From positions 1 to 35,989 of the forward strand of contig CACNIC010000007.1 in NCBI GenBank assembly GCA_902620405.1: 35,989 nt of DNA. Direction: 5' to 3'. Shown here in pieces: positions 21,566-28,412 of this stretch. The stretch is from an uncultured SAR202 cluster bacterium (GTDB lineage Bacteria > Chloroflexota > Dehalococcoidia > Lucifugimonadales > Lucifugimonadaceae). Position 1 is the stretch's first letter; every line of letters begins with the position of its first letter. Position numbers and translations under genes: made by a program. Below the pieces are notes generated by a model. It had not been told where the DNA came from. It saw only the letters and a program-made list of their open reading frames with translations, and searched no databases.

Positions 21566-21634
21566 AAAATTTATATTGAAAATTTATGGTTTTATAGATT
21601 TCTGTTATTTTAACAACTATATATGGGTATTAAT

Positions 21635-22390
21635 ATGAGATTTGCATTAGCCGGAATAAATCATGAAACAAATACTTTTCACAGTATTCCCACAAAGTAT
21701 GAAAACTTTGAAAAGAGTGGAATGCTTTTAAGAGGAAAAGAAATTGAAAAATTGTATGATACTCCTTCAACTATAGGAGGTTTCTATAATGCATCACAAC
21801 AATTTGGATTTGAATTAGTTCCTCTACTATTTGCTACTACTGGACCTCTAGGAACAATTACTTCAGATGCTTTTGAAAGTTTAATAAATGAAATAATTGA
21901 TTTAATTAAATCAAGTGAACCTTTTGATGCAGTTCTTTTGAATTTACATGGAGCTGCTGTTTCAGAACAATTTGAGGATATGGATGGTGAAATAACTGAA
22001 AGAGTTAGAAAAGTAATTGGTGATGAAATACCATTTGGGATTAATTTAGATATGCATGCAAATGTTTCTGAAAAAATGATAATTAATACTGACATTACTA
22101 ATGTTTATCAGACAACTCCTCACCTAGATGCTGACGAAACAGGATTTAAGTGTGCTGAACTAGTTTACAAGACAGTTATTGGTGAAATTGTACCAACTCA
22201 GCATATAGAAACACCACCTATGACAATAAATATAGTAAATCATAATACTAACTTAGAACCTATGAAATCAATTTTGGCAGAGTCAAGGAAATTATATGAA
22301 GACAGTGACGTTCTGTCTGTGAGTGTCGCCGAAGGTTATCCCTATTCAGATATAAAAAAAAATGGGAATGTCATTTACAGTAATTACTAA
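21635..22390 (+). CDS. M81 family metallopeptidase (MlrC), N-terminal part, interrupted by a frameshift
   Basis: This is the N-terminal catalytic half of an MlrC-like protein. The start MRFALAGINHETNTF at 21635 fits the family better than the ATG at 21623. Conserved segments include LLNLHGAAVSE, the zinc-ligand motif LDMHANVSEKM and TPHLDADETG. MlrC was described for cleaving linearised microcystin, but most homologues have unknown amide substrates. The frame runs ...SVAEGYPYSDIKK and then falls out of register at an A9 tract (22354-22362), ending a few codons later. Deleting one A joins it exactly to the downstream frame at 22362-23117, giving a normal full-length protein of about 490 residues. 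Confidence 0.85.
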   Translation: MRFALAGINHETNTFHSIPTKYENFEKSGMLLRGKEIEKLYDTPSTIGGFYNASQQFGFELVPLLFATTGPLGTITSDAFESLINEIIDLIKSSEPFDAVLLNLHGAAVSEQFEDMDGEITERVRKVIGDEIPFGINLDMHANVSEKMIINTDITNVYQTTPHLDADETGFKCAELVYKTVIGEIVPTQHIETPPMTINIVNHNTNLEPMKSILAESRKLYEDSDVLSVSVAEGYPYSDIKKNGNVIYSNY

Positions 22391-23117
22391 TAATAATGCA
22401 ACCAAAGCAAAAGAATATTCTAAGAGCATAGCAAAATATGCTTGGAGCAAAAGATATGAAATGAATTCCCAAGCCCCTACAATAGAGCAGGGCCTTAAAG
22501 AAGCGGTTTCAACAATTGAAAAACCTGTTGTCCTAATGGATTCAGGAGATAATATTGGTGCAGGCTCTTCTGCTGACTCCACTCACATATTGCATAAAGC
22601 AAGAGAACTTGGTGTAAGTGGAATACTTCAAACTCTATTTGATCCAGAAGCTGTAGAAAAGTGCATGAATAAAGTTGGGTCCATGATTACTTTAATGGTT
22701 GGAGGTAAAAGTGACTCATTACATGGAGAACCTATTGAAATTACTGGCAAAATTACAAAGTATTTCCAAGGAGAGTTTGAAGACTTTGGCAGGACTCATG
22801 GGGGCAGTAAGTATTTTGACGCAGGAGATTCAGTTGCAATTCAAACAGAAGATGAAAATACTTTAATTTTGACAAGCAAAAGGGTTGGAAATACAAGTAT
22901 ACAGCTTTATTATTCTTTAGGAATAGATCCTTTAGGTTTTCCAATAATTATCGCAAAAGGTGTCCAGTCTCCAAGACCAGCCTTTGAACCAATTGCATCA
23001 AAAATTATTGCATTAGATACTCCAGGAGTCACTGCATCAGGATTACATAATTTTAATTTTAAAAATATTAGAAGGCCTATGTTTCCATTTCAAAAAGATG
23101 AAGCAAAATATATCTAA
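22362..23117 (+). CDS. M81 family metallopeptidase (MlrC), C-terminal domain, separated by a frameshift
   Basis: This is the C-terminal MlrC_C portion, 251 codons from the nominal ATG inside the junction. Family segments are VLMDSGDNIGAGSSADSTHIL, LFDPEAVEKC, GGKSDSLHGEPIEITGKI and GLHNF near the end. In homologues this domain is fused to the M81 domain, so this is probably not an independent gene. No ribosome binding site precedes 22362, and the upstream frame overlaps it by 29 nt. It may be made through slippage at the A9 tract, or the break may be a sequence error. If the break is real, the peptidase is probably inactive. Confidence 0.8.
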   Translation: MGMSFTVITNNNATKAKEYSKSIAKYAWSKRYEMNSQAPTIEQGLKEAVSTIEKPVVLMDSGDNIGAGSSADSTHILHKARELGVSGILQTLFDPEAVEKCMNKVGSMITLMVGGKSDSLHGEPIEITGKITKYFQGEFEDFGRTHGGSKYFDAGDSVAIQTEDENTLILTSKRVGNTSIQLYYSLGIDPLGFPIIIAKGVQSPRPAFEPIASKIIALDTPGVTASGLHNFNFKNIRRPMFPFQKDEAKYI

Positions 23118-23157: not shown

Positions 23158-23178
23158 AAATGAGAATGATTCTCATTT
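23158..23178 (+). promoter_or_regulatory. Fur-type operator upstream of the flavoprotein operon
   Basis: There is a perfect 10-1-10 palindrome: AAATGAGAAT, a central G, then ATTCTCATTT. The inner TGAGAATnATTCTCA is the 7-1-7 core recognised by Fur-family repressors (Fur, also compatible with Zur or Mur). It sits directly after a possible -10 (TTATTATAAA around 23146-23155) and about 24 nt before the ATG, the classic place for metal-dependent repression. AAAAGGAG (23181-23188) follows as ribosome site. The downstream genes are therefore predicted to be induced when iron, or possibly zinc or manganese, is scarce. Confidence 0.85.
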
Positions 23179-23201
23179 ATAAAAGGAGAAGTTAAAATAT
23201 T

Positions 23202-24320
23202 ATGGAAAAATTTGATGTAGTTATCGTTGGCGCTGGCCCATCTGGCATAGGCATGTGTTCAATGTTAAAAGATTTTGGTGTTGAAAGTATGACTGTTATC
23301 GATAAAGGTAAAGTAGGCGAAACTTTTGATAAATGGCCAGAAGAAATGAGATTTATAACACCATCTTTTACTACGAATTTCTGGGGCCATATGGATTTAA
23401 ACTCAATTGCAGTGGGTACGTCTCCGGCTTTCACATTAGAAACAGAACATCCAACTGGTAAAGAATATGCCAAATATTTAAGGACACTTGCAGAACATTT
23501 TGAACTACCAATAAAAGAAAATACTGAAGTTGAAAATGTTGAATATTCAAACAATCATTTTACAATTAATATTAAAAATGGTTCTCCAATTAAATCAACA
23601 TATTTAATTTGGGCTGCCGGTGAATACCAATATCCTGATCTTAATGCATTTTCAGGATCCCAACTTTGCATGCATAACAGTACAGTAAAAACATGGAAGG
23701 AAATAAAAGGAGATGATTTTTATGTAATTGGAGGTAATGAGAGCGGCATTGATGCAGCTATTAATTTAAGCAGGATGGGAAAAAAAGTAACAGTTCTTGA
23801 TGAAAAGGAAAATCCAGATGCAAAAATAACAGATCCAAGCGAAACTCTTACTCCCTACACAGTTGATAGGCTTATGGATGAAATAGCGTATGACAGGATA
23901 ACACTTGTTGCTGATACTAAGGTTGATGAAATCAAGTTTGAAAATGATAATTACATAATTACCAACGAAAGAGATGATTCTACTTACACAACGAAATCAA
24001 AACCAATATTAGCAACTGGATTTGTTAGCAGTTTATCTATGGTAAAAGATCTTTTTGATTGGCATGAATCAGATTCTTATGCTTTACTTAACGAACACGA
24101 TGAATCAAGAAAAACACCTGGTTTATTTCTTGTAGGTCCTCAAGTACGTCATGAAGACTTAATATTATGTTTCATCTACAAATATAGGCAACGCTTTGGG
24201 GTTGTTGCAAATGCGATTGGTGATAGACTAGGTATGGACACTTCATTCTTGGATCAATATCGAGAAGAAGGTTTATATAAAGATGATTTGGGTGCTTGTG
24301 GAGAGGAGTGCCCATGCTAA
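23202..24320 (+). CDS. FAD/NAD(P)-binding flavoprotein oxidoreductase, Fur-box controlled
   Basis: This 372-residue two-dinucleotide-binding flavoprotein has an FAD motif VVIVGAGPSGIG (GAGPSG at 10-15), a second Rossmann motif YVIGGNESGIDAA near 175, and the late FAD segment LATGF...GLFLVGPQ. It resembles the CzcO/YpdA-type flavin monooxygenase and disulfide-reductase-like group but lacks a CxxC redox motif in the body. The protein ends in an unusual Cys cluster (ACGEECPC, 365-372), which could bind metal or act in thiol exchange. It is the first gene behind the Fur-type operator, and the next gene begins inside its last codons. Partner and substrate are unknown. Confidence 0.87.
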   Translation: MEKFDVVIVGAGPSGIGMCSMLKDFGVESMTVIDKGKVGETFDKWPEEMRFITPSFTTNFWGHMDLNSIAVGTSPAFTLETEHPTGKEYAKYLRTLAEHFELPIKENTEVENVEYSNNHFTINIKNGSPIKSTYLIWAAGEYQYPDLNAFSGSQLCMHNSTVKTWKEIKGDDFYVIGGNESGIDAAINLSRMGKKVTVLDEKENPDAKITDPSETLTPYTVDRLMDEIAYDRITLVADTKVDEIKFENDNYIITNERDDSTYTTKSKPILATGFVSSLSMVKDLFDWHESDSYALLNEHDESRKTPGLFLVGPQVRHEDLILCFIYKYRQRFGVVANAIGDRLGMDTSFLDQYREEGLYKDDLGACGEECPC

Positions 24321-24505
24321 TAAGAATGGACAACAAATCAAAATACAATTTTAGTTCAATTTGGCTTTTTCAATTGATTGCAAGTACGTCTTGGATGATA
24401 TCGGTATTTCTTTACGGGACTTTTTCATCGGGTGATTTATTTCAGTTAATAGCATCATCTGCATGGACAGTTGCTAACATAATTAATTTTTTCAAAAGAG
24501 ATTAA
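24314..24505 (+). CDS. Tiny two-helix membrane protein, unknown function
   Basis: This 63-residue protein starts at the ATG at 24314, which has AGGAG 5 nt upstream and overlaps the end of the flavoprotein gene. It has two hydrophobic segments of similar pattern (SIWLFQLIASTSWMISVFLYG and DLFQLIASSAWTVANIINFF), each containing FQLIAS-x-x-W, so it looks like an internal duplication. It ends with a basic FFKRD tail. I know no named family for it. Placement between the flavoprotein and the DUF2061-like gene, with 1 nt to the latter, argues for a membrane partner in the same metal-regulated unit. Confidence 0.75.
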   Translation: MLIRMDNKSKYNFSSIWLFQLIASTSWMISVFLYGTFSSGDLFQLIASSAWTVANIINFFKRD

Positions 24506-24506
24506 A

Positions 24507-24740
24507 ATGACTGAATTTGCACAAGGAATCATAAATTCTGTAAAAGATAAAATGGATGAAAGCTTAGCACTAGCTCTTATTTTCTTCATTGGTCATATAT
24601 TAATTGCAATGACTGTAGTGAGCATTATTACTGGCGCTAGTATTTGGGAAGCAGGTATAGTTGCACTTGTTGAACCAGCTGTAAATTCTGTATGGTTTTA
24701 TGTTTTGCATAAATTATGGAAAAAATTTAGTAAAAATTAA
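24507..24740 (+). CDS. DUF2061-like small membrane protein
   Basis: This 77-residue protein has two membrane segments (ALALIFFIGHILIAMTVVSIITG and the region around IVALVEPAVNSVWFYVLHKLW). The pattern of helix, ITG-turn, then EPAVNSVWFYVLHKLWKK resembles the DUF2061 predicted membrane protein family, normally about 60-80 residues with a VEP/K...YYLHERxW ending. Function is unknown. It begins 1 nt after the preceding stop and is the last gene of the Fur-box unit, ending 34 nt before the convergent enolase-superfamily gene. Confidence 0.75.
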   Translation: MTEFAQGIINSVKDKMDESLALALIFFIGHILIAMTVVSIITGASIWEAGIVALVEPAVNSVWFYVLHKLWKKFSKN

Positions 24741-26704: not shown

Positions 26705-27385
26705 ATGAAAAACAATAGATTAAATAAAATTAGTTCATGTAAAAATATACCTTATTTTGACGCCTTGATAATTGGAGCAGGATTCTCGGGTTTATATCAA
26801 TTGTATTCTTTAAAAAAGCAAGGACTTTCTGTAAAAGTGATTGAAGCAGGAAGTGGAGTAGGGGGCACTTGGTACTGGAATAGATATCCAGGAGCCAGGT
26901 GTGATTCAGAAAGTTTTACTTATTCATATACATTTAGCAAAGAATTGTTTAAAGAATGGGAGTGGACTGAAAGATACCCAGGTCATCTAGAGGTAGTTAA
27001 ATACCTAAATTATGTTGCTGATAAATTTTGCCTAAAAAAAGATATTTATTTTGAAAAAAAAGTAATTTCAGCTCATTACAACAATAATAATAAATGGAAA
27101 GTTAAAACTGATTCTTTAGAGGTATTTGAAAGCAAATATCTTATAACAGCAGTTGGTTGTTTATCCTCAAAAAATATACCTAATTTTAATGGGTCTGATA
27201 GTTTTTTAGGTGAAAGTTATCATACAAGTGATTGGCCACACTATGATGTAGATTTTACAAATAAAAGGGTAGGGCAAATAGGTACAGGGTCAACAGGAAT
27301 TCAAACGGCTCCTGAAATAGCAAAAAAAATCAAAACATCTTACTATATTTCAGCGTTCTGCCAATTACAGTGTGCCTGCAAGTAA
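26705..27385 (+). CDS. Baeyer-Villiger-type flavin monooxygenase, N-terminal part, interrupted by a frameshift
   Basis: This is the N-terminal 226 codons of a flavin-binding monooxygenase. The FAD site is LIIGAGFSGLYQLY, followed by GVGGTWYWNRYPGARCDSES and ERYPGHLEVVKYL. The Baeyer-Villiger fingerprint FLGESYHTSDWP matches FxGxxxHxxxW(P/D) exactly, and the NADPH site is GQIGTGSTGIQ. These enzymes insert oxygen next to a ketone to give an ester or lactone. The register is lost at an A8 tract (27322-27329). With seven A residues the frame reads EIAKKSKHLTIFQRSANYSV, the canonical family sequence, and continues into the frame ending at 28412. No good ribosome site is seen before the ATG. Confidence 0.87.
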   Translation: MKNNRLNKISSCKNIPYFDALIIGAGFSGLYQLYSLKKQGLSVKVIEAGSGVGGTWYWNRYPGARCDSESFTYSYTFSKELFKEWEWTERYPGHLEVVKYLNYVADKFCLKKDIYFEKKVISAHYNNNNKWKVKTDSLEVFESKYLITAVGCLSSKNIPNFNGSDSFLGESYHTSDWPHYDVDFTNKRVGQIGTGSTGIQTAPEIAKKIKTSYYISAFCQLQCACK

Positions 27386-28412
27386 CTATCCCTTAAGTCC
27401 AGAATTTAAAAAATACATTAAGGAAAATTATGAAGAAATAAAAAATACGATTCAATCCAATACTAATGGGCATTTTTTTAAATTTTCTAAACAAAAAATA
27501 CTTGATACAAGTATAGAGGAACGTGAAAAAATATTTGAAAAAGCATGGCTTAAAGGTGGCCTAGGTTTTAGGGCATGTTTTAATGACATTGCATTTAATA
27601 AAGAGGCTAATGATCTTGCCTCAGATTTTATTAAAAGAAAAATTCATAAAATAGTTAAAGATCCAAAAAAGGCTAAAATTTTAACTGATATTGACCATGC
27701 TTTTGCTTCTAAAAGACCACCGATTGATACGAATTACTTTGAAACATTTAATAAAGATAATGTCACTTTAATTGATCTTAAATCATCACCCATAGAATCA
27801 ATTACCTCAAAAGGAGTAAAGACTATAGATAAAGAGTATGAGCTGGATGTTCTGGTTTATGCAACTGGCTTTGATGCAATGACTGGACCATTATTAAATA
27901 TAGATATAAGGGGTTGCGACGGAATAAAACTAAAAGATGTATGGAGTGAAGGACCAAAAACTTTTCTCGGTATACAAATTTCTGGGTTTCCAAATTTATT
28001 TACTATAACTGGACCAGGTAGTCCTTCAGTTTTGTGCAATATGATCGTTCCAATTGAGCAACATGTTGAATGGATTAATGACTGCATAGTTTATATGGAA
28101 AAAAATCAAATCGATTTTATAGAGGCAACTCAAGGATCTATGGAAAATTGGACTAAACATGTAGATGATGTTGCAAACGAGACTCTATTTATTCATGCCA
28201 AGAAATCTTGGTATTATGGAGCAAATATACCTGGAAAGCCAAGAGGTTTTATGCCTTACCCAGGAGGAATGTCTAGATATAAAGCTATTTGCAATTTTGT
28301 CGCAAATCAAAATTATTTAGGTTTTAAGTTTAGTAATTCTAATAAAGAAGAAACATTTGTTCCTTCTGAAATATCCATTGATATATTGATAAAAGACTTA
28401 ATGACTAAGTAA
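27372..28412 (+). CDS. Baeyer-Villiger-type flavin monooxygenase, C-terminal part, separated by a frameshift
   Basis: These 346 codons make up the rest of the monooxygenase. Family segments include NYPLSP after the NADPH site, GLGFRACFNDI, KRPPIDTNYFETFN, LDVLVYATGFDAMTGPL and NLFTITGPGSPSVLCNM, with SWYYGANIPGKPR near the end. The nominal ATG at 27372 lies inside the coding sequence and has no ribosome site, so it is unlikely to be a true start. The two parts total about 565 residues, normal for a type I Baeyer-Villiger enzyme. If the frameshift is real and not rescued, the enzyme is lost. Confidence 0.82.
   Translation: MPASNYPLSPEFKKYIKENYEEIKNTIQSNTNGHFFKFSKQKILDTSIEEREKIFEKAWLKGGLGFRACFNDIAFNKEANDLASDFIKRKIHKIVKDPKKAKILTDIDHAFASKRPPIDTNYFETFNKDNVTLIDLKSSPIESITSKGVKTIDKEYELDVLVYATGFDAMTGPLLNIDIRGCDGIKLKDVWSEGPKTFLGIQISGFPNLFTITGPGSPSVLCNMIVPIEQHVEWINDCIVYMEKNQIDFIEATQGSMENWTKHVDDVANETLFIHAKKSWYYGANIPGKPRGFMPYPGGMSRYKAICNFVANQNYLGFKFSNSNKEETFVPSEISIDILIKDLMTK

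Follow-up and report, generated by a model that had tools for sequence, protein, structure and literature searches.

The operon and its gene products

The window analysed here is a 35,989-nucleotide stretch of DNA from an uncultured SAR202 cluster bacterium. An earlier note on it, made from the sequence alone, had pointed to a perfect 21-bp palindrome in front of three tightly packed genes, and this arrangement was confirmed. The locus comprises the following features:

23158..23178, no strand: predicted Zur operator, a 21-bp perfect 10-1-10 palindrome (AAATGAGAATGATTCTCATTT), 23 bp 5' of the flavoprotein ATG
23202..24320, + strand: FAD/NAD(P)-dependent flavoprotein (PF13738, Pfam E 2.4e-94), 372 aa; 3D1C homolog with an AF2 model
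24168..24170, + strand: codon of Cys323, invariant in a 41-row alignment and also Cys in 3D1C
24297..24317, + strand: C-terminal tail CGEECPC (codons 366-372), with C366, C370 and C372 invariant
24314..24320, + strand: ATGCTAA overlap, with the two-helix start within the last Cys codon and stop of the flavoprotein
24314..24505, + strand: two-helix membrane protein, 63 aa, without Pfam family; helices at 12-34 and 39-62, internal Q-xx-A-xxx-W repeat
24507..24740, + strand: DUF2061 (PF09834) membrane protein, 77 aa, 26.4 bits, above the gathering score of 23.1

Elsewhere in the window, an MlrC/M81-like gene (PF07364 and PF07171) lies in two overlapping frames (21623-22390 and 22362-23117), as by frameshift, and a Baeyer-Villiger-type monooxygenase is likewise found in two frames (26705-27385 and 27372-28412), which match a single model in its N and C parts.

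The first gene encodes an NAD(P)H:FAD oxidoreductase of the 3D1C family, as established by homology and fold. Its nearest solved homolog, 3D1C of S. aureus, aligns with it from end to end, Cys tail included (E 3.8e-73), and the AF2 model (pLDDT 87) has 3D1C as best Foldseek match (TM 0.89), followed by YpdA (TM 0.76). The protein ends in ACGEECPC, so that the tail described in the earlier note is real, and its cysteines are limited to positions 19, 156, 323, 366, 370 and 372. Cys323, which sits just before the C-terminal helix (325-342), and the tail residues C366, C370 and C372 are all four invariant in the 41-row alignment of relatives, as are the glycines of both nucleotide-binding motifs. 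A C-x3-C-x1-2-C end was present in 77/77 full-length homologs, and tail residues 367-372 are disordered in the AF2 model (pLDDT < 50). The flavoprotein falls outside two related reductase families: the redox CxxC in the NAD(P)H domain of thioredoxin reductases is absent, the YpdA/Bdr model TIGR04018 gives 105.7 bits (cut-off 339.9), and Cys14, the catalytic residue of YpdA, is Ser in the flavoprotein alignment.

The 63-residue protein had been noticed for its two FQLIAS-x-x-W helices. These helices are real: all of 27 relatives keep the Q-xx-A-xxx-W motif in each of the two, and the two motifs of the window's protein are 24 residues apart. No significant Pfam, PDB-sequence or Foldseek match was obtained for it. 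The protein is encoded 3' of the flavoprotein in 70/87 loci; for 66 of these 70, its start lies close to the flavoprotein stop or overlaps with it. An HMM search of 30 genomes retrieved exactly one copy in 20 and zero in 10. Loci that lack it usually have another membrane protein next in line, be it a FeoB-like Gate protein, an SBF transporter (two loci) or some other small one. Since other membrane proteins fill this slot, membrane partnership is the rule, with the exact partner varying. The FeoB-like partner has Gate and G domains as FeoB does, but scores about 106 bits on the FeoB model, where 316 are needed. Members of this GTPase-Gate family were observed 3' of the flavoprotein in seven loci (L173:10132-11772, L083, L088, L100, L174, L178 and L179), and a CSxCSxxxC motif is present in the copies from Pantoea and S. 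arlettae.

The third gene was correctly recognised as DUF2061-like, its product passing the PF09834 cut-off. It is found at the same place only in two close relatives (L006 and L007), and DUF2061 is therefore a lineage-specific addition and was rejected as a core component. Of the three-gene module proposed earlier, the operon, the redox flavoprotein and the membrane partners stand, whereas DUF2061 lies outside the conserved core. In Caulobacter, a DUF2061 gene is iron-responsive and Fur-regulated (PMC3751524), a point in favour of an iron-related role that is weighed below.

The operator and its regulon

The palindrome is the single perfect 21-bp 10-1-10 palindrome in the window (0.16 expected under a Markov model of the window), and the box TGAGAATNATTCTCA has one perfect match there. 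Ten exact copies of the box TGAGAATNATTCTCA were counted across 12 related genomes: six precede the flavoprotein gene, three precede znuA and one lies inside hisS. In a Fur (iron) regulon, the box would be expected before iron genes, but none of these ten precedes one. In related genomes, the operator is common to znuA and the gene of a Fur-family regulator. One relative (G044) has the exact box between znuA and the Fur-family gene; another (G066) has a one-mismatch box between divergent genes, with the Fur-family protein on one side and ZnuA, an ABC ATPase and a permease on the other. The ZnuA of the latter is His-rich, and znuA products of the related genomes have long His/Asp-rich loops, which are typical of zinc-binding ZnuA.

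In four of these genomes (G013, G023, G044 and G066), the sole Fur-family protein found adjoins znuA. Scored against equivalog models, the Fur-family protein of the relatives stays under the cut-off for Fur as well as that for Zur, and is nominally nearer the Fur models. Family models thus do not decide between the names Zur and Fur, and the assignment to zinc is made on the basis of neighbours and operator. Neither a PF01475 (Fur-family) match nor ZnuA or COG0523 genes were seen in the window's own genome, whose assembly is 70% complete. The operator also varies among relatives: one locus (L036) has no box before the operon, and G013 and G023 carry a variant box that was not found at their Fur-family/znuA operon.

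Independent lineages point to the same metal. TAATCGTAATTATTACGATTA lies 5' of the Paenibacillus operon and AAATCGTAATAATTACGTTTT was found in S. epidermidis; these operons have TCGTAATTATTACGA and TCGTAATAATTACGT boxes, the Bacillus Zur consensus. Upstream of the planctomycete, Pantoea and haloarchaeal operons, the operator search gave weak palindromes only, and a sigma-70 scan of the operon region returned matches no more than chance. The architecture of the box has a precedent in C. glutamicum, where Zur operators are 21-bp palindromes with a 1-bp centre (PMC2823685).

Taken from sequence, the operon is very probably under Zur (zinc) control. The earlier designation of the box as Fur-type was right for the protein family; the metal it points to is zinc, not iron.

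Distribution and zinc-gene neighbourhoods

Relatives of the flavoprotein were found in 161 candidate stretches of the species collection, the best 80 of which belong to Dehalococcoidia/SAR202, Planctomycetes, Dadabacteria, Bacteroidota, Gemmatimonadota, Myxococcota, marine Euryarchaeota and further groups. Among relatives with a name, marine Chloroflexota genomes are the nearest, which probably places the window in that group too; 6/400 genomes of the window's phylum have a match at E ≤ 1e-60. Many loci come from metagenome-assembled genomes, with many short contigs, and distant members are putative orthologs, called by sequence. Viral contigs contained no flavoprotein relatives, and a viral origin was rejected on this ground; three records labelled phage do match the flavoprotein. 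The flavoprotein query also hits around 500 plasmid records of Klebsiella, with about 38% identity among the matches listed.

At least one of COG0523, ZnuA, ZnuB and a Fur-family gene lies within 6 kb in 50 of the best 80 of the 161 loci (COG0523 in 40, ZnuA in 12, ZnuB in 13 and Fur-family in 14, counted by blast-based clusters). Within 1.5 kb, zinc-marker genes were present in 47/80 loci vs 0/22 for control flavoproteins of other families. Pfam confirmed representative COG0523, ZnuA and ABC-3 permease proteins as well as the Fur-family protein of G044, and the ZnuC-like cluster, which consists of generic ABC ATPases, was left out of the zinc-gene counts. Zinc uptake and COG0523 genes thus stand beside the orthologs, as in a Zur regulon, and the conservation of operator and neighbourhood in relatives goes far beyond chance. 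The earlier note had said that a lack of such conservation would count against its module, and on this point the module stands.

The ortholog islands also contain ZnuABC, folE2, cysS, hemB and rpsN paralogs. The examples that follow are from annotated plasmids. On the Pantoea island, the flavoprotein gene occurs with hemB, a pyrC-type dihydroorotase, thrS, carbonic anhydrase, folE2 and dksA, as well as a COG0523-type GTP-binding protein, a transcriptional repressor, cysS, a queD-type gene and zigA. Its neighbours in both Paenibacillus and haloarchaea are a GTP-binding protein and rpsN, joined in Paenibacillus by rpmG; in staphylococci, it adjoins zinc ABC transporter binding-protein genes. The Paracoccus gene is near aztABCD and adjoins a repressor, a GTP-binding protein and cysS.

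Three further families were observed in these neighbourhoods. A family of about 200 aa without Pfam match (cluster c3, 25 loci, a few members of which are probably false frames) recurs by the flavoprotein and COG0523 (L040, L065, L069 and others). A 70-90-aa family with the pattern SYxxWRxxxxxxCxIxLTxxYI...WF, also without Pfam match, was seen in L046, L065, L079, L095, L106 and L173 (11786-12028) and recurs in zinc-starvation neighbourhoods including Pantoea. A second, different flavoprotein family (cluster c16) adjoins this flavoprotein in L059, L062, L063, L067 and L109.

Proposed function, alternatives and known systems

Our preferred reading is a zinc-starvation operon with Zur control, a thiol-reducing flavoenzyme and a membrane partner, to which we give, as a whole, a probability of about 45%. 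When zinc is present, Zur would sit on the 23158-23178 palindrome and keep the operon shut; when zinc is absent, the operon genes would be made. Genome comparison lends this part strong support. Electrons would pass from NAD(P)H to FAD and, past Cys323 at the start of the C-terminal helix, which is presumably flavin-facing, to the mobile tail with C366, C370 and C372. The tail may then reduce thiols meant to hold zinc in zinc-handling proteins, and the reduced thiols would make it possible to bind scarce zinc or pass it along. The co-translated two-helix protein would be the membrane partner, either docking the enzyme or forming the membrane side of the reaction, a role that may be taken in other lineages by the FeoB-like Gate protein, the SBF transporter or small membrane proteins; DUF2061 would be a local accessory.

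The thiol-reductase step itself is put forward tentatively, at slightly less than even odds. The thiol-disulfide reductase fold, the four invariant cysteines and the disordered tail, its cysteine motif kept in 77/77 homologs, were counted for a thiol mechanism. With Ser in place of Cys14 and no CxxC motif, electron transfer to the tail is a guess; instead of accepting electrons, the tail could serve just to bind zinc. A bolder version is doubtful, in which the system is a redox relay for zinc starvation in many bacterial phyla and some archaea: an NAD(P)H flavoenzyme would reduce or release zinc thiolates through its C-terminal Cys tail, and a minimal two-helix protein would let it work at the membrane, in the role that a FeoB-like protein has elsewhere.

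Zinc binding by the tail leads to a rather unlikely alternative, namely zinc handover without thiol reduction. Here, the Cys tail, with or without Cys323, would pass zinc to or from the membrane partner or a COG0523 protein, and FAD/NAD(P)H would gate zinc binding by redox state. The four invariant cysteines could form a Zn(Cys)4 site, the neighbours are zinc metallochaperone GTPases and importers, and the FeoB-like transporter is available as an alternative partner. A whole NAD(P)H flavoenzyme would, however, be costly as a mere carrier of a metal-binding tail, and the invariance of the glycines in both nucleotide-binding motifs speaks against such a role.

It is decidedly unlikely that the enzyme is an oxygenating flavin monooxygenase that modifies a small molecule (a metallophore, thiol or sulfur compound) moved by the membrane partner. 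Although 3D1C was deposited as a putative monooxygenase, the flavoprotein matches ArsO and Lys/Orn monooxygenase models weakly and an SBF transporter takes the partner slot in two loci, the flavoprotein has no PF00743 match and reaches 54.3 of the 425 bits needed for ArsO (NF040505). Its F-x-G-x5-H, with a G-to-H spacing of six, not four, departs from the flavin-containing monooxygenase fingerprint FxGxxxHxxx(Y/F/W), and no metallophore genes were recognised adjoining the flavoprotein gene.

Still less probable is a zinc-independent stand-in for some zinc enzyme, comparable to the FolE2, HemB, PyrC, ThrS and CysS paralogs of the same islands. In Pantoea soli, the gene sits within a run of such paralogs; in Paenibacillus, it adjoins paralogs of rpsN and rpmG, and in haloarchaea rpsN. 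These positions fit the idea, but no zinc enzyme of the same reaction is evident and the strict pairing with membrane proteins is atypical. A Fur-controlled ferric or iron-release reductase, as suggested in the earlier note, is highly improbable: the box resembles Fur boxes, IruO of S. aureus, a Fur-regulated reductase, has a related fold and the Caulobacter DUF2061 gene is Fur-regulated, but of the exact boxes in the 12 genomes none precedes an iron gene and three precede znuA, and the orthologs cluster with zinc genes, two of them behind Bacillota Zur-type boxes, so that an iron regulon was rejected by operator distribution and neighbours.

Because zinc is redox-inert, the recurrence of an NAD(P)H flavoenzyme among zinc-starvation genes, in many bacterial phyla and some archaea, is unexpected. 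If the preferred reading of a thiol-reducing zinc-starvation operon is true, zinc scarcity would be linked to thiol redox state, and two families, the two-helix membrane proteins, so far unnamed, and the FeoB-like proteins, would be tied to zinc starvation. Orthologs occur in culturable genera, and the proposal is therefore testable.

In the open-access literature, no description of the function of the flavoprotein and two-helix pair was found; subscription journals may differ. The terms flavo-, FAD, FeoB and monooxygenase are absent from the text of a 2018 review of Zur regulons (PMC6103462), as are flavo- and FeoB from a survey of COG0523 (PMC2770081). A regulatory parallel is cg0794/cg0795 of C. 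glutamicum, a Zur-repressed COG0523 GTPase and 'oxidoreductase' encoded side by side (PMC2823685), in which oxidoreductase and COG0523 share Zur control through a 21-bp palindromic operator; cg0795 is likened here by description only. An FAD oxidoreductase of Picosynechococcus pAQ7 is elevated both when zur is mutated and under TPEN (PMC4628125). This enzyme, taken as the FAD/NAD(P)-binding gene of its cluster, is Zur-controlled and adjoins hemB and folE paralogs, but was rejected as an ortholog: with 17% identity, it groups with another flavoprotein family (cluster c16), which is found beside our flavoprotein in five loci.

At the protein level, YpdA/Bdr bacillithiol disulfide reductase resembles the flavoprotein in fold and in its FAD and NAD(P) motifs, and differs from it in having Cys14 instead of Ser and in lacking the added Cys tail. 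The nearest relative, 3D1C (S. aureus 'flavin-containing putative monooxygenase', NP_373108.1), is a solved structure for which neither function nor metal context was found. It shares 35% identity with the window's protein in the structural alignment, together with the same Cys tail and Cys323. Its relatives in other staphylococci pair with a FeoB-like Gate protein, not with the two-helix protein, and the operon described here offers a candidate context for this crystal structure, released in 2008.
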